Assembly (NCBI GenBank): GCA_024275575.1
Contig: JAJRYV010000009.1
Coordinates: 1 to 64,000 of the forward strand
Source: a bacterium
GTDB lineage: Bacteria; Zhuqueibacterota; Zhuqueibacteria; Zhuqueibacterales; Geothermadaptataceae
DNA length: 64,000 nucleotides
Direction of reading: 5' to 3'
Part shown: piece by piece, positions 25,139 to 63,950 of the stretch
How positions within the stretch are numbered: position 1 is the first letter of the stretch
Layout: every line of letters begins with the position of its first letter
Program-made: the position numbers and the translations under genes
The notes under the pieces: model-generated
Database searches by the model: none
The model's input: only the letters and a program-made list of their open reading frames with translations
Told to the model about the DNA's origin: nothing

Positions 25139-25868
25139 CCACGCACTTTAACATGTGGAATATTACCAGATCAATAATAGCTGAAGTACCAGATAAAGCT
25201 CACTTGACCCGGCAACATTATTCTCAGCGACAGGGGATTTTTTTCTGCCATTTTTATTGAGATGCTATCACGAAATTATTTGATAAATCCTGTTACTGCT
25301 ATTGCCGGAAAGAGCAATTTTTTTAATACCTTTCAGAAAATAAAAGCCTCGCAACTTTCCAATCTCTATAAATTTATGCTGTCATGAATTCTATGTTATG
25401 CAAATTATAAGGTTTACAATCAAAGATATTGCATTATAATTAATACTTATAGTTTATTTTAAATAATATAATATATTATTTATAATGAACTTGTCTGATA
25501 TTTTTTTCGTCTTTTTTTAATTGTATTTTCGGAATTTTTTACATTTATTCGAATTAGCGCTACCTCATGATCTCACCAGCATTGAAAGAGAGTTTTTGTA
25601 ATTTAAGTTTAATAAAAACAGTAGTAGATGTCAATATTAGAGCTGATAAAGCTTATTTTTGTTTGCATAAATTATAATAATGATCCTAAAAGATTTTATA
25701 TCAAAATGCAAAGCTTCTAATTGTTTTAAAAAACCTGCTCTTAGGTGGTGGGAATCTCCCCATGTAAGGGTTGAAAAAAGACTCGCACAACAGCATGAAT
25801 TCAGCAAATTCATAATATTAATATGAATAATAAAATTCATCGTCCCATAAACAAACAGAGGAACTGAC
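25139..25868. other. 730-bp AT-rich intergenic region before the cytochrome operon
   Basis: No credible gene is seen. The stretch 25380-25520 is very AT-rich and holds a perfect 21-base palindrome at 25461-25481 (ten-base arms around one A). The region separates the glycan locus from the octaheme cytochrome operon and probably contains that operon's promoter and leader. Confidence 0.5.
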
Positions 25869-26675
25869 GTGAACATACTTGAACAAACACGGCAGCTGGT
25901 GGAACGTTTAAAAACGAGGGTATTTTCAATGAAATTACCATGGCGAAACTTTCCTGAACAAATCCGGCGTCTGATCGTTGTGTGGAGTTTTCTTATCATT
26001 CTGCCATTTTTTATTCGTTCGCTTTTGATCCCGGCCGATTTTGGGAAATACGGTCATTTCCGTGCTTCGGCAGTCGAGGAGGCCATCGCGAAAGAGATGA
26101 AGTATGCCGGGCATGCGATCTGTTATGATTGCCACGATGAGGAAGTAGAAAGTAAAATGGTCGGTGTGCATAAAAATGTCAACTGCGAGGTTTGCCACGG
26201 TCCGGCGGCGGCGCATGTTGAAGATGATGAAATCAAACCCCGCGCCCCGCGGGAAAGGGATTCCTGCCCGTTGTGCCACGAATATCTTTCTTCGCGGCCG
26301 ACCGGTTTTCCACAAATTATCTCTGATTCGCATGAACCGATGAAAGCATGCATCAGTTGTCACGATCCGCATAACCCGCGCGGTAAGGAAATGGCCAAAG
26401 AATGCGGCGGCTGTCACGCGGAAATTGCCAGCACGAAATCGCTTTCAAAACATGTGAACATCCCCTGCGAAAAATGCCACGAAACACCTGAATTGCATAA
26501 ATTACAACCGCGTCTGCATTTGCCCGGCAAACCGTCCAAACGCGAATTCTGCGGCGGTTGCCATGACGTGGAAGCCGATAGCGACATAGCCATACCCCGC
26601 GTCGAATTAGCGACGCATGAAGAAGCCTATGTTTGCTGGCAATGTCATTACCCCCATCTACCGGAGGCGGAATAA
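25869..26675 (+). CDS. Membrane-anchored octaheme c-type cytochrome
   Basis: A 268-residue protein with one hydrophobic segment (residues 35-55) followed by eight CXXCH haem c sites: Cys85, 106, 133, 161, 179, 200, 228 and 256. Many extra His residues could act as distal ligands. It is most likely anchored in the inner membrane with the haems in the periplasm. GAGG lies seven bases before the GTG start at 25869; the ATG at 25929 is an alternative. Its stop overlaps the start of the Fe-S protein gene by one base, and NrfD follows, so the three proteins form a complex. In arrangement it resembles NrfB-NrfC-NrfD, where a multihaem cytochrome passes quinol electrons to a partner reductase. Confidence 0.9.
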   Translation: MNILEQTRQLVERLKTRVFSMKLPWRNFPEQIRRLIVVWSFLIILPFFIRSLLIPADFGKYGHFRASAVEEAIAKEMKYAGHAICYDCHDEEVESKMVGVHKNVNCEVCHGPAAAHVEDDEIKPRAPRERDSCPLCHEYLSSRPTGFPQIISDSHEPMKACISCHDPHNPRGKEMAKECGGCHAEIASTKSLSKHVNIPCEKCHETPELHKLQPRLHLPGKPSKREFCGGCHDVEADSDIAIPRVELATHEEAYVCWQCHYPHLPEAE

Positions 26676-27463
26676 TGAAAACGAAAGCGAAGAATATGAA
26701 GCGCAGAAAGTTTGTTCAAAAAATGCTGCTTTCCCTGACTGCATTGTCGATGCCGGTAGTGCTCACTGCAAAAGAAAAACTGAAACAGCTGCAAAAATGG
26801 ATTTTAGGCAAGGATTATAACCCCTTCGACCATTATTGGGGCATGGGCATCGACATCAATAAATGTATCGGGTGCGGCCGCTGTGCGGCTGCCTGCAAGG
26901 AAGAAAACGATGTGCCGCAAGCGCCCTTCTTCTTCCGCACCTGGGTGGAGCGCTACCGTATTTTTCATGACGGCGAAGTACGAGTTGACAGCCCAAACGG
27001 TGCAGTCGATGGTTTTGAAAAGCAAAATATTGAAAAGGGGAAAGTTACGATTCGCAGCTTTTTTGTGCCTAAAATCTGCAATCATTGTGATAATCCGCCT
27101 TGTGTGCAGGTTTGTCCGGTCGGGGCGACATTCAAAACACCTGATGGTGTCATTCTTGTCGACAAAGACTACTGTATCGGCTGCCGTTATTGCGTGCAGG
27201 CTTGCCCCTATGGTGCGCGTTTTATCAATCCAATTAGTAAAACAGCTGATAAATGCACATTCTGTTACCATCGTGTAGTGCAGGGACTGGTTCCGGCATG
27301 TGTGGAAATGTGCCCGACTCAGGCCCGTGTTTTCGGCGAAATCAAGAAAAAGGCCAGCCCGCTGGTCAGGTTTATGCGTCACCACAAAATCGGCGTTCTC
27401 AAGCCGGCGTTGAATACTGAGCCGAAAGTTTATTATGCGAACCTTGATATGGAGGTAAATTAA
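26675..27463 (+). CDS. Tat-exported four-cluster ferredoxin subunit, NrfC/PsrB-like
   Basis: A 262-residue iron-sulfur protein with four cysteine groups for [4Fe-4S] clusters: CIGCGRCAAACK, CNHCDNPPCVQVCP, CIGCRYCVQACP and CTFCYHRVVQG..CVEMCP. The N-terminus has a twin-arginine signal (MKRRKFVQK, then a hydrophobic stretch), so it folds in the cytoplasm and works in the periplasm. The start ATG at 26675 overlaps the cytochrome stop codon (TAATG), with GGAGGCGG just upstream, showing translational coupling. It would carry electrons between the NrfD membrane subunit and the octaheme cytochrome. No molybdopterin subunit is encoded next to it. Confidence 0.93.
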   Translation: MKTKAKNMKRRKFVQKMLLSLTALSMPVVLTAKEKLKQLQKWILGKDYNPFDHYWGMGIDINKCIGCGRCAAACKEENDVPQAPFFFRTWVERYRIFHDGEVRVDSPNGAVDGFEKQNIEKGKVTIRSFFVPKICNHCDNPPCVQVCPVGATFKTPDGVILVDKDYCIGCRYCVQACPYGARFINPISKTADKCTFCYHRVVQGLVPACVEMCPTQARVFGEIKKKASPLVRFMRHHKIGVLKPALNTEPKVYYANLDMEVN

Positions 27464-28681
27464 TTGGAAGAGATAATTCAACACCTGACGCCGCTTTTGA
27501 AAGAGATCAGCGGTTACATTTATCCCAATGAAATCGAGCTGCACTGGAGCCTTCTCGTTGTTATTTATCCCTATCTGACCGGACTGGTCGCCGGCGCTTT
27601 TATTCTGGCCTCGCTGGTTAAAGTCTTTAATGTCGAAGCCTTGCGTCCGGTTTATCGTATCGCATTGCTGACGGCGCTGGCTTTCATGCTGGTGGCGCCG
27701 CTTTCGCTTCTCGCTCACCTGGGGCATCCGGACAGATCGTTTGAGATTTTTCTGACCCCGAATGTCACCTCGGCCATGGCGATGTTCGGCTTTGTCTATT
27801 TATGGTACCTGATGGCCGTGCTGTTTCTGGAAATCTGGTTTGATTACCGCCGTGATTTCATTAAATGGGGGCAGGAAGGCAAAGGGCTGAAAAAATGGTT
27901 CTATAAATTCCTCTCTCTTTTTTCAAAAGATGTTTCCCCGAAAGCGCTTGCGTTCGATGATAAAGCAGAAAGGGTGATCACGATTCTTGGAATCCCCTCA
28001 GCATTTTTGCTGCATGGTTACGTGGGTTTTATTTTCGGCTCGGTCAAAGCCAACCCTTTCTGGTCGAGTGTACTCATGCCCATCGTTTTCCTCTTCTCGG
28101 CGATCGTCTCGGGCATTGCCCTGGTTTTGCTGATTTATATGATCATCACGCCGTTTCGCTATAAACAAATCGATGAAAAATGCCTCGATACTCTCGCCAG
28201 CTTTCTCTTTTACGCGATGATCATCGATTTCTCCCTGGAAATCCTCGACTTTATTCACCGTATTTATGAGTCGGAGGAATCGATTCATATCCTTTCGCAG
28301 CTGGTCGCCGGTAAATTGTTTTTCAGCCTGATCATCGTACAGTTGATCATCGGCATGATTATACCGCTGGCGACTATTGCGGCAGTAAAAGCATTCAATA
28401 CTCCGGCGGAACTGAAACGTCTGCTCTATTTTCTTTCAGCCCTTTTAGTGCAGGTCGGCATCTTTTTTACCCGCTGGAATGTCGTCATCGGCGGCCAGCT
28501 TTTCTCCAAGAGCTTCCGCGGTCTGACGGCGTACAAAATGACGTTTTTGGGCATCGAAGGTTTGCTGATGTCCATCGGCATGCTGGTTTTGCCGTTTTTA
28601 ATTTTGTATGTGCTATTCAAATTATTACCCCCGTGGAAGGATGCGCCGCCAGCGGCTGAAATCCCTGCTGAAGCGACATAA
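27464..28681 (+). CDS. nrfD: NrfD/PsrC-type quinone-interacting membrane subunit
   Basis: A 405-residue polytopic protein of the NrfD/PsrC family with about eight to ten membrane helices. The N-terminal WSLLVVIYPYLTGLVAGAF, then LAHLGHPDRSFEIF and FFTRWNVVIGGQ, are typical quinone-site and helix motifs. It starts at TTG 27464, directly after the stop of the Fe-S gene, with GGAGG eight bases upstream. The expected role is quinol oxidation (or quinone reduction) coupled to the Fe-S protein and octaheme cytochrome. The missing terminal reductase or oxidase must be encoded elsewhere. Confidence 0.92.
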   Translation: MEEIIQHLTPLLKEISGYIYPNEIELHWSLLVVIYPYLTGLVAGAFILASLVKVFNVEALRPVYRIALLTALAFMLVAPLSLLAHLGHPDRSFEIFLTPNVTSAMAMFGFVYLWYLMAVLFLEIWFDYRRDFIKWGQEGKGLKKWFYKFLSLFSKDVSPKALAFDDKAERVITILGIPSAFLLHGYVGFIFGSVKANPFWSSVLMPIVFLFSAIVSGIALVLLIYMIITPFRYKQIDEKCLDTLASFLFYAMIIDFSLEILDFIHRIYESEESIHILSQLVAGKLFFSLIIVQLIIGMIIPLATIAAVKAFNTPAELKRLLYFLSALLVQVGIFFTRWNVVIGGQLFSKSFRGLTAYKMTFLGIEGLLMSIGMLVLPFLILYVLFKLLPPWKDAPPAAEIPAEAT

Positions 28682-29363: not shown

Positions 29364-30041
29364 ATGTTGAAAAAATTAAGTATAAGTTTGTTTGTCATGT
29401 TATTCATCGTAGCTCCTGGCGGGCTCATTGCTCAGGAAAAAAAGACCGATCTGGCGCCAATCAAAATCGACCTGCCAAAACCGATGTTTGTCGGAACGCC
29501 ACAGAATATGCAAGTGCCAAACCTCGAAAAACCGCTGGGCAAACCGCGCCCGCCTTTTCTTGCGCCGGTGGGCACTAAAAATCTTGTGCTCGGGCAGGTA
29601 CCGGCGAGCACCGATGATATGCCGATCATCGGCGAACTGGAGATGATCACCGACGGCGACAAGGAAGCGCCGGAAGGGCATTTTGTCGAACTCGGTCCGT
29701 TTTTGCAGTACCTGACGTTCGACCTGGGGCAACCCTGTAACATCTATGCCGTTCTCATCTGGCATTTTCATAAACAGGCCCGTGTCTATTTTGATGTTAT
29801 CGTGCAGGTCGCTGATGACAAAGATTTCACTCAGAATGTGCGCACTATTTTCAATAATGACCACGACAATTCAGCCGGACTCGGTGTCGGTAAAGACTGG
29901 CATTATGTTGAAACTTCAGAAGGCAAACTCATCGATGCTGCCGGCGTGATCGTTCGATATGTGCGCATTTATTCCAACGGCAACACCAATAATGACATGA
30001 ATCATTACGCAGAAGTGGCGATTTACGGCACACCGAAATAA
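29364..30041 (+). CDS. Secreted discoidin-like (F5/8 type C-like) protein
   Basis: A 225-residue exported protein with a signal peptide ending near LIAQ, a proline-rich linker (residues 32-75) and a C-terminal beta-sandwich (about 95-222) whose strands (FVELGPFLQYLTFDLGQP, VYFDVIVQVADD, VRYVRIYSNG) look like a galactose-binding/discoidin fold. No catalytic residues are evident, so carbohydrate or surface binding is the likely role. Its stop overlaps the next start by one base (TAATG), so it is translationally coupled to the membrane glycosyltransferase gene and probably works with it. Confidence 0.68.
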   Translation: MLKKLSISLFVMLFIVAPGGLIAQEKKTDLAPIKIDLPKPMFVGTPQNMQVPNLEKPLGKPRPPFLAPVGTKNLVLGQVPASTDDMPIIGELEMITDGDKEAPEGHFVELGPFLQYLTFDLGQPCNIYAVLIWHFHKQARVYFDVIVQVADDKDFTQNVRTIFNNDHDNSAGLGVGKDWHYVETSEGKLIDAAGVIVRYVRIYSNGNTNNDMNHYAEVAIYGTPK

Positions 30042-31618
30042 TGCGCTCATCTATCGTTATTTTCGGGGGGATACCACTGCTGTTATGCCTGGCTTTGTGG
30101 CTGCGGGTCGCTCATCTCGGTTCGCGGCCCATGCATACCGACGAAGCTGTGCACGCCATCAAGTTTGGCATGTTGCTGGAAAAAGGGCAATATTTTTACG
30201 ACGCTAACGAATATCACGGCCCCACGCTGAACTATTTCACTCTGTTTCCCGCCTGGCTGCAAAAGCAAACATTTCTTCACGATACCGATGAATTTACCCT
30301 GAGAATCGTACCGGCAGTTTTCGGTTTTTTGCTCTGTGCCGGTCTGCTTTTGTTGCGGGGAGTGCTGGGGCAAACGGCTGTTTTATCAGGCTCATTTTTG
30401 ACCGCGATTTCACCGGCGATGGTTTTTTACAGCCGCTATTATATTCAGGAAATGCTGCTGGTTGCATTCACATTTGTTGTGATGCTGTGCGGCTATTTTC
30501 TCCTGCGTACGAAAAAACTGCCTTGGGCTGCAGCCCTGGGAATTGCTCTGGGGCTGATGCACGCAACAAAAGAAACATGGATTATCGCCGCGGCCTGCAT
30601 GTTGTTTTCGCTGTTTGTTGTTGCCTGTTTGGAGAAATTGTGGATCGAGAAATATGAGCTGCTTTTTATTGCCAAAGCCGGCGGCATTGCAATCGCTTTT
30701 TTCCTGCTGATTTCAGCCATGTTTTTCTCTTCTTTCGGTGAAAATCCTGCGGGACTTCATGAAGCGATCACAACCTACACAACATATTTCAAGCGTGCTG
30801 CCGGCGATACGAAACATGTGCAACCGTGGTTTTATTATGGACACATTCTGACATTTTTTCAGCAGGGTGAGGGGCCGGTTTGGAGTGAAGTTGTCATTCT
30901 CCTGCTGGCATCGGTTGGTATGGCCCAGGCATTTAAACATCGGAAATATGATTTGCCTGGCCGCATATTTATCAGGTTTTTATCGATTTATGCCTTGCTG
31001 ATGTTCGCAATTTATAGCGCGATCCCTTACAAAACACCGTGGAATCTTCTCGGGTTTCATAGTGTTTTTATCATGCTTGCCGGTGCGGGTGTGGCTGCTG
31101 TTTTTAAATTCCGCTGGGTAAAACGCCGGGTTTGGTTTTATACCATTTTTTTCTGCATCGCTTCGGTGCATCTTTTTCGGCAGGCCTGGCTGGCGAATTC
31201 TACTTATGCCGCACATCCGGCCAATCCCTATGTTTATGGCCACAGTCATCCCGATGTTTTGAAAATGAAAAAACAGATCGATTCATTTGTTGCTGTTTTT
31301 CCGGAGAACAGAGATTATTATATCCAGGTCATCTGCAGTGGCGGGGATTACTGGCCGCTGCCGTGGTATTTGCGCGATTATTCACAAATCGGTTGGTGGA
31401 ACGATGTACCTGATAGCGGTCAGACTGCAGCGCTGCTCATCTTTTCCCCTGACCTGGAAGGCAAGATAACCCGTAAATTGTACCAGCAGGCGCCTCCCGG
31501 AAAACGGTTTCTTTATGTTCGCTTTTTTGATGAGCGGCTCTTTCTGCGTTCAGGGGTCGAATTGCTCGCTTACGTGCGCAAACGGGAATGGGATATTTTG
31601 CAGCGCAGGGGAAATTAA
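30041..31618 (+). CDS. Agl23-like (TIGR03663-type) membrane glycosyltransferase
   Basis: A 525-residue polytopic membrane protein of the GT-C/ArnT-like superfamily. The first periplasmic loop has the motif PMHTDEAVHA (about residues 30-39) with the acidic pair expected for a metal or lipid-phosphate-sugar site, and YHGPTLNYF follows; both are typical of the TIGR03663/Agl23 flippase-associated group. About eleven hydrophobic segments come before a soluble C-terminal domain (from about 400). It may move a sugar from a polyprenyl carrier to a periplasmic acceptor. The coupled upstream discoidin-like protein is a candidate partner or acceptor. Confidence 0.78.
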   Translation: MRSSIVIFGGIPLLLCLALWLRVAHLGSRPMHTDEAVHAIKFGMLLEKGQYFYDANEYHGPTLNYFTLFPAWLQKQTFLHDTDEFTLRIVPAVFGFLLCAGLLLLRGVLGQTAVLSGSFLTAISPAMVFYSRYYIQEMLLVAFTFVVMLCGYFLLRTKKLPWAAALGIALGLMHATKETWIIAAACMLFSLFVVACLEKLWIEKYELLFIAKAGGIAIAFFLLISAMFFSSFGENPAGLHEAITTYTTYFKRAAGDTKHVQPWFYYGHILTFFQQGEGPVWSEVVILLLASVGMAQAFKHRKYDLPGRIFIRFLSIYALLMFAIYSAIPYKTPWNLLGFHSVFIMLAGAGVAAVFKFRWVKRRVWFYTIFFCIASVHLFRQAWLANSTYAAHPANPYVYGHSHPDVLKMKKQIDSFVAVFPENRDYYIQVICSGGDYWPLPWYLRDYSQIGWWNDVPDSGQTAALLIFSPDLEGKITRKLYQQAPPGKRFLYVRFFDERLFLRSGVELLAYVRKREWDILQRRGN

Positions 31619-63095: not shown

Positions 63096-63950
63096 TCAAT
63101 AAATCAGCTCAACCCAGCGGTGACCGGCTTGCAGTTCGGCTTTGCGGCGCTGCCAGAGTTCATCGGAGCCGGCGACTTTGCTGAAGGTGGCGTCGAAGGT
63201 TGTGGCGATGGATTCCAGCCCGGCGAGGAAAACGTGGGTATTGGGTTTGAGCAACATTTTCCAGATTTCATCTTTGTTTTGCTTGAAAGCGGCAGCAAAA
63301 TCGACCGGTTTGTCGAGATAGGGCTTGGGGCTGATGGCGAGAATTGCTTCAAAGGTCTCTTTGCTGTAATAGTTGCTCAAATCGTTCTTTTCATCGTTCA
63401 TATACAGCATTTCGGCGCCGGTGCGCTGACCGTAAAACAGGCGGATTTTACCGCCCCAGGTTTGGTGTTTTTTATACAAATTCTGAATAAATGCACGAAA
63501 CGGCGCGATGCCTGTTCCTAAACCAACCATGATGATATCGGCGGATTTATCGCCGGGAATTTCAAACGGCAGGCCGTAGGGGCCGGTGAGCTGCAGCGAA
63601 TCACCGGGTTGCAAATCACAGAGATAATTGGAAGCTACGCCTTTGTACTGCTCGCCGCTGAATTCGTCGATATAATCGCAGCGTTTTACACATAAATTGA
63701 TGTTTTTATCGCCGTTGGTGGTTTGTGCAACGGAATACAGGCGCAGATGGTCTTCATTGCCGAAATCGTGCGGCCCGGGAACGAGCACACCGACGCTCTG
63801 TCCCGCTTCGAGTGAGACATCGACGTCTTCATTGATTTCCAGAATGATATCGCGCACTTCCTCGGTGGATTGCTCCGGCGTGATTCGTTGTGATGATTTG
63901 ACCACGGCATAAAAGCGGTTGCTTGTATCGTAGTTCTGTAATTGACTCAT
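63096..63950 (-). CDS. Plant-type ferredoxin-NADP(+) reductase family protein
   Basis: A 284-residue flavoprotein of the plant-type FNR family. FAD site: LRLYSVA (Arg70-Ser73) and GVASNYLCDL (104-113); NAD(P) site: VGLGTGIAPFRAF (142-154) and FYGQRTGAEMLY; C-terminal end WVELIY with a terminal Tyr as in plastid-type FNR that stacks on FAD. It passes electrons between NADPH and ferredoxin or flavodoxin. GGAT lies eight bases before the ATG. Its upstream neighbour is outside the window. Confidence 0.92.
   Translation of the reverse strand: MSQLQNYDTSNRFYAVVKSSQRITPEQSTEEVRDIILEINEDVDVSLEAGQSVGVLVPGPHDFGNEDHLRLYSVAQTTNGDKNINLCVKRCDYIDEFSGEQYKGVASNYLCDLQPGDSLQLTGPYGLPFEIPGDKSADIIMVGLGTGIAPFRAFIQNLYKKHQTWGGKIRLFYGQRTGAEMLYMNDEKNDLSNYYSKETFEAILAISPKPYLDKPVDFAAAFKQNKDEIWKMLLKPNTHVFLAGLESIATTFDATFSKVAGSDELWQRRKAELQAGHRWVELIY

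Follow-up and report, generated by a model that had tools for sequence, protein, structure and literature searches.

An octahaem cytochrome–NrfC–NrfD gene trio conserved across bacterial lineages and predicted to link menaquinol to multihaem cytochromes

Main

An octahaem c-type cytochrome gene followed directly by genes for an NrfC/NrfD pair, with no gene nearby for an enzyme to serve, raises the question of what such a module is and where its electrons might go. The trio lies in a 64-kb window, the whole stretch of 64,000 nucleotides that was analysed, from a Calditrichota-type genome (4.96 Mb in 144 contigs, 97.7% complete; nearest named relative Calditrichaeota CLD2 67). An earlier note on this DNA had read it as a lone, unusual operon that may supply a remote reductase, extracellular electron transfer (EET) or a new acceptor. 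Here we examine its architecture, family placement and distribution, and the genes that accompany it in other genomes and could be its partners in this one.

Results

Gene organization

The trio spans window positions 25869–28681 on the + strand (Table 1). Its first two genes overlap by one base (TAATG), and the TTG of NrfD, with GGAGG upstream of it, comes immediately after the NrfC stop, as expected from the tight coupling described in the earlier note. The Tat signal, membrane anchor and eight CXXCH sites reported there were likewise all confirmed from protein motifs, and a Pfam scan of the three proteins gave Cytochrome_C7, Fer4_11 and NrfD matches above cut-off. The start of the cytochrome is uncertain: it may be the GTG at 25869, which is shared with its surroundings by the sister species, or an ATG at 25929, the position where many relatives begin.

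Upstream of the trio, a candidate control element has been kept almost unchanged in the sister species within an otherwise diverged upstream region, and a search for its 20-mer core, allowing up to two mismatches, finds this one copy in the genome. A sigma-54 promoter search upstream of the trio and an Rfam search of the window both found nothing, and sigma-70 sites and intrinsic terminators exceeded shuffled sequence only modestly.

No terminal enzyme is encoded close by, as had been claimed: no ORF in the 64-kb window other than the trio cytochrome has two or more CXXCH motifs, no molybdoenzyme or terminal reductase was recognized among the 29 window proteins scanned, and the operon itself has no catalytic subunit. 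Window neighbours include a glycoside hydrolase, an esterase, a fucose-isomerase-like protein, sensor kinases and a phosphofructokinase, among others. The pair of genes directly 3′ of the trio keeps its order in the sister species and has no evident functional link to it; an oxidoreductase gene lies near the window edge.

Table 1. Features in the 64-kb window
Feature	Position	Strand	Length and start	Basis or remark
Octahaem c-type cytochrome with N-terminal membrane anchor	25869..26675	+	268 aa from GTG	8 CXXCH; 8 further invariant His (29-sequence alignment); Pfam Cytochrome_C7
NrfC/PsrB-like protein, Tat-type signal, four [4Fe-4S] motifs	26675..27463	+	262 aa, ATG	Fer4_11 E=9e-29; phmmer to Thermus PsrB 2vpw_B E=2e-47; RRKF motif, invariant R10-R11
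NrfD/PsrC-like integral membrane subunit, predicted quinone-reactive	27464..28681	+	405 aa, TTG	PF03916 E=2.7e-39; AF2 pTM 0.79; Foldseek top match ActC 8k9e_C, TM 0.72; own clade 100/100
Conserved AT-rich stretch GTCTTTTTTTAATTGTATTTTCGGAATTTTTTACATT	25509..25547	+	39 bp	About 320 bp upstream of trio; candidate control element
F5/8-type C domain-like and Agl23-family membrane protein genes	29364–31618			Directly 3′ of trio
FAD/NAD-binding oxidoreductase domain protein	63096–63950			Near window edge

The octahaem cytochrome

Three or more CXXCH motifs arose in 1 of 20,000 composition shuffles of the cytochrome, against the eight observed, and the protein has a single hydrophobic segment, at its N-terminus. 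Across 29 aligned cytochromes all eight CXXCH motifs are invariant, and so are exactly eight more histidines (101, 116, 155, 168, 195, 210, 250 and 263 in the window protein). Because of these extra histidines every haem can have a distal His, and bis-His ligation of all haems would make a substrate-binding or catalytic haem unlikely; the cytochrome looks like a conducting wire and not an active site. Its AF2 model (pTM 0.42, built without haems) gave only weak partial matches to octahaem nitrite reductases (E ≥0.05), which we judged to be generic multihaem similarity.

The NrfC–NrfD module and its placement

NrfC carries KRRKFVQK with a hydrophobic stretch, and 16 cluster cysteines. Its Y172, within CIGCRYC, is invariant across 23 NrfC relatives and matches in position a tyrosine that lies between cluster cysteines of QrcC and is essential there; the quinone site of QrcABCD has been placed at the periplasmic face by experiment (PMC13059093). 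S103 of NrfD is also invariant and, judged by motif, may fit the position of QrcD S138. In passages of PMC6303296 and PMC13059093, NrfC–NrfD pairs are described as quinone-reactive modules with a Q-site at the P-side.

NrfD has about nine long helices. Neither single-sequence nor profile searches gave any relative of solved structure; the fold search gave ActC of alternative complex III as the closest (Table 1). By its domain content, a PF03916 subunit paired with a four-cluster Fer4 protein, the trio belongs to the broad NrfC–NrfD quinone-reactive redox-module family. Against curated NCBIfam models, whose cut-offs are 314–550 bits, the window NrfD scored at most 56 bits (56 against TIGR03148, equivalog cut-off 347.6; 46.9 against the DsrP model, cut-off 350). 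Among the 50 NrfD proteins of a phylogenetic tree, those linked to octahaem cytochromes formed one clade on a long stem (bootstrap 100, SH-aLRT 100), apart from E. coli NrfD, HybB, the genome's own ActC, DsrP-like proteins and molybdoenzyme anchors; the branch to its nearest neighbours had only 77/71, and Geobacter CbcU was in neither this tree nor a quick tree of 62. The NrfD phylogeny proposed as a check in the earlier note thus leaves the trio outside Nrf. A plasmid search for NrfD relatives returned only haloarchaeal and Azospirillum molybdoenzyme anchors, at about 36% identity or less.

Comparison with known complexes

The trio shares with E. coli NrfBCD the cytochrome–NrfC–NrfD order, the Tat-exported four-cluster protein and the cofactor-less quinone-reactive membrane subunit. 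NrfB, however, is a soluble pentahaem protein with nrfA in its operon, whereas the trio has eight haems, an anchor, no nrfA and a separate NrfD clade. The contrast with nrfBCD drawn in the earlier note is therefore correct, and Geobacter CbcSTU (Cbc4) is the closer analogue in plan. CbcSTU and DsrJOP-like complexes are three-part menaquinol dehydrogenases, also without a catalytic subunit, that are believed to supply periplasmic cytochromes during Fe(III) respiration. The haem count is four in CbcS (PMC10989804) and three in DsrJ, against eight in the trio, whose NrfD falls outside the DsrP-type clade of a tree without CbcU.

Alternative complex III (ActABCDEF) is likewise a quinol:cytochrome oxidoreductase with an NrfD fold, but it has a pentahaem ActA and an ActB with a fused molybdoenzyme-like domain; a full act operon is encoded elsewhere in the genome, whereas the trio has a single NrfD-fold subunit and no ActD, ActE or ActF. 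Desulfovibrio Ohc also combines an octahaem cytochrome, an FeS protein and a membrane protein, but in the order ohcBAC and with an OhcC that binds haem b (PMC4641369), where the trio has NrfD. Unlike the CISM complexes (Psr/Ttr/Arr/Dms), the trio has no molybdopterin catalytic subunit among the window proteins scanned. The Geobacter Cbc3-type Rieske/cytochrome b/multihaem complex, ImcH and CbcL are separate quinol outlets that are not homologous to the trio; their relatives adjoin it elsewhere and lie on another contig (C142) here. The trio would work like NrfBCD or CbcSTU but lacks the features that mark membership of either, and it is not an alternative complex III, an Ohc or a molybdoenzyme complex.

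Distribution

A scan of 84,980 species genomes (public bacteria and archaea) with the NrfD protein found at least 501 stretches encoding a relative. In the best 80 of these, NrfD is 63–86% identical over nearly the whole protein (86% between the window and the sister species), gene order is fixed wherever it can be read, and the anchor is present in complete cytochromes. All but three of the 76 readable cytochromes, 73 in total, have exactly eight CXXCH motifs, and those three ORFs are fragments of 106–134 aa. These 80 loci span about 20 phylum labels, some of them loose, from source genomes that are nearly all MAGs or drafts in which single contigs may be mis-binned. The trio is real, tightly conserved and widespread, a family where the earlier note had seen a lone operon. 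We found no description of it in the open-licence literature searched, and it is unlisted in the table of complexes of an NrfD survey (PMC8076601) and in the phylogeny part of an NrfD family study (PMC6303296).

Neighbours in other genomes

Of the best 80 loci, 34 have Rieske and/or cytochrome b genes next to the trio. A common layout has the trio first, then Rieske, cytochrome b and nine-haem cytochrome genes, with NtrC-type regulators and a DUF2339 membrane protein encoded ahead of them all. Of the 58 loci that are 9 kb or longer, 42 encode another cytochrome of at least four haems no more than 6 kb away (a plain count, not a test). The ImcH-like protein of this genome has homologues next to the trio in 17 loci, and its CbcL-like protein likewise in 17. 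In a Calditrichota locus (L062) the genes directly after the trio encode an ImcH-like protein, a putative barrel and a cytochrome with 14 haems, a layout of the porin-cytochrome type, and the barrel homologue recurs in a second trio locus (L087); these two loci provide the link to EET genes that was sought for an inner-membrane quinol dehydrogenase. Elsewhere the trio usually sits among genes predicted to send electrons outside the cell.

Pairing with cytochrome b is frequent and not obligatory, because among 60 relatives examined two of the seven trio-bearing genomes (G022 and G038) have no cytochrome b. Strict co-occurrence was rejected on this 5/7 count and on the many relatives that have cytochrome b without the trio. 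A molybdoenzyme-like cluster occurs at only three of the loci, two of which carry it beside a second NrfD.

In two Syntrophobacterales loci the octahaem trio has a tetrahaem–DsrO-like–DsrP-like set immediately upstream of it (L077:403-3059 and L080:1547-4208). The tetrahaem-linked NrfD passes the DsrP cut-off at 415 bits, whereas the octahaem NrfD scores 44–47 bits, and their presence side by side makes the two sets distinct. The tetrahaem modules are possibly CbcSTU relatives.

Candidate partners in this genome

The partner search suggested in the earlier note recovered multihaem cytochromes, OmcE-like subunits and a putative porin-cytochrome set, all remote: in this genome the trio stands alone, far from any candidate. 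On contig C142 (C142:18000-33017, L121) one strand encodes CbcL-like, ImcH-like, DUF2339, C554-like tetrahaem, Rieske, cytochrome b and nine-haem proteins, an operon that matches locus L044 and others minus the trio between DUF2339 and Rieske. The CbcL-like protein combines multiple haems with a b-type domain, and its counterpart in the sister species has 19 haems. The ImcH-like protein, of 496 aa, shows the motif content of ImcH, CX3CH and six CXXCH (PMC6295460). The sister species (G001) shows the same split: its trio lies on a separate contig, where F5/8-type and Agl23 genes follow it as they do in the window. The trio may have left the operon in this genus, or may have joined it in others.

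OmcE-like tetrahaem filament (nanowire) subunits are encoded on C30 (L208:368-1078 and 1428-2171) and C138 (L209:1-681). The first matches PDB 7tfs (E=1e-25), which we take to be the OmcE structure, and 9yuq (5e-27); the assignment of the remaining two was made by eye. A putative porin-cytochrome set on C111 (L215:1863-5420) comprises a 428-aa barrel-like protein, a 14-haem cytochrome and an 8-haem lipoprotein. The outer-membrane barrel-like proteins have no Pfam or NCBIfam match; the barrel family of C111 is also found next to ImcH-like genes at L062 and L219, the latter from a same-class relative (G034) in which Rieske, cytochrome b, nine-haem and ImcH-like genes are contiguous with barrel and 14-haem genes. 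Large multihaem proteins of 15, 17, 25 and 28 haems are also encoded, as are a HAO-like octahaem PF13447 protein (C116, L213:6875-8107) and a complete alternative complex III (C81). A second set related to the latter (C57, L123:5098-11680) encodes a multihaem protein, an 824-aa molybdoenzyme-like protein, an NrfC-like protein, an NrfD and a four-CXXCH class I-type cytochrome.

Discussion

We propose that the trio is probably a membrane-bound menaquinol:multihaem-cytochrome oxidoreductase feeding a shared envelope network that leads, most likely, to extracellular acceptors. NrfD would bind menaquinol near the periplasmic face and hand electrons to the clusters of the Tat-exported NrfC, from which they would pass through the anchored octahaem bis-His wire to periplasmic or outer-membrane multihaem proteins. 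The trio would then be one of several parallel quinol outlets, together with the Rieske/cytochrome b/nine-haem, ImcH-like and CbcL-like complexes, and the network would reach acceptors outside the cell through OmcE-like filaments and porin-cytochrome conduits, with the HAO-like enzyme as an alternative sink. Which way the electrons flow, which protein the trio docks with, where the electrons finally go and whether protons are coupled to their passage are all inferred. Among the sinks offered in the earlier note, a remote acceptor or EET is the best supported, and its interpretation as a whole is partly supported.

The strongest competitor, though an improbable one, is the same complex run in reverse, as a cytochrome:menaquinone reductase that, like Qrc, draws electrons from donors in the periplasm or outside the cell (H2, formate, Fe(II) or a partner cell) and passes them to the quinone pool. 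Modules of the NrfCD type run both ways, and QrcABCD is an electrogenic cytochrome:menaquinone reductase, according to passages of PMC6303296 and PMC13059093; CbcL-type proteins, which also adjoin the trio, have been inferred to work both ways (PMC6295460). The frequent neighbours, however, are of quinol-oxidizing types (Rieske/cytochrome b, ImcH), ImcH homologues have been found only in Fe(III) reducers (PMC6295460), and the trio NrfD lies outside the HybB/HmcC-type clade to which QrcD is closely related in the phylogeny part of PMC6303296.

It is also unlikely, and we place it below reversal, that the trio is the dedicated donor of a remote periplasmic reductase such as the HAO-like protein on C116, in a split Nrf-type reduction of nitrite or hydroxylamine. 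The three-gene plan of E. coli NrfBCD and the presence of that octahaem protein speak for such a role, as does Caldithrix abyssi, thought to reduce nitrite with eHao (PMC5317091). Yet the neighbour clusters that recur around the trio at the loci examined included no recognized HAO or NrfA gene, and the trio NrfD, 56 bits against a TIGR03148 cut-off of 348, lies off the E. coli NrfD branch.

We consider it very improbable that the trio is simply a CbcSTU (Cbc4)/DsrJOP-like quinol dehydrogenase with another haem number: the three-part plan and the job proposed in Geobacter are the same (PMC11434368, PMC10989804), but eight haems stand against the four of CbcS, and a DsrP-type tetrahaem set coexists with the octahaem trio in the Syntrophobacterales loci, with separate NrfD clades in a tree without Geobacter CbcU. 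Least credible of all is a stranded, decaying copy left by the break-up of an operon, for although in this genus the trio lies apart from the genes that usually accompany it, its frames and motifs are intact, and its NrfD (at the identity given above), downstream neighbours, start region and upstream element are conserved in the sister species.

A menaquinol:multihaem-cytochrome oxidoreductase of this kind might further join the Rieske–cytochrome b–nine-haem unit in one supercomplex with two different menaquinol sites. This is a speculative extension that we hold to be unlikely; if it were true, a b-haem Q-cycle and an NrfD-type proton path would make up a composite energy-conserving gate for EET, undescribed so far, across about 20 phylum-level lineages.

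The trio is a strongly conserved and widely spread NrfD-type complex that is absent from the survey table of PMC8076601 and the phylogeny part of PMC6303296. It gives a defined three-gene target, and a metagenome marker, for metabolism that couples menaquinol to envelope cytochromes, which concerns uncultured Calditrichota, Ignavibacteria, Zixibacteria and others, and it offers a way to test whether NrfD complexes that supply multihaem networks conserve energy in doing so.
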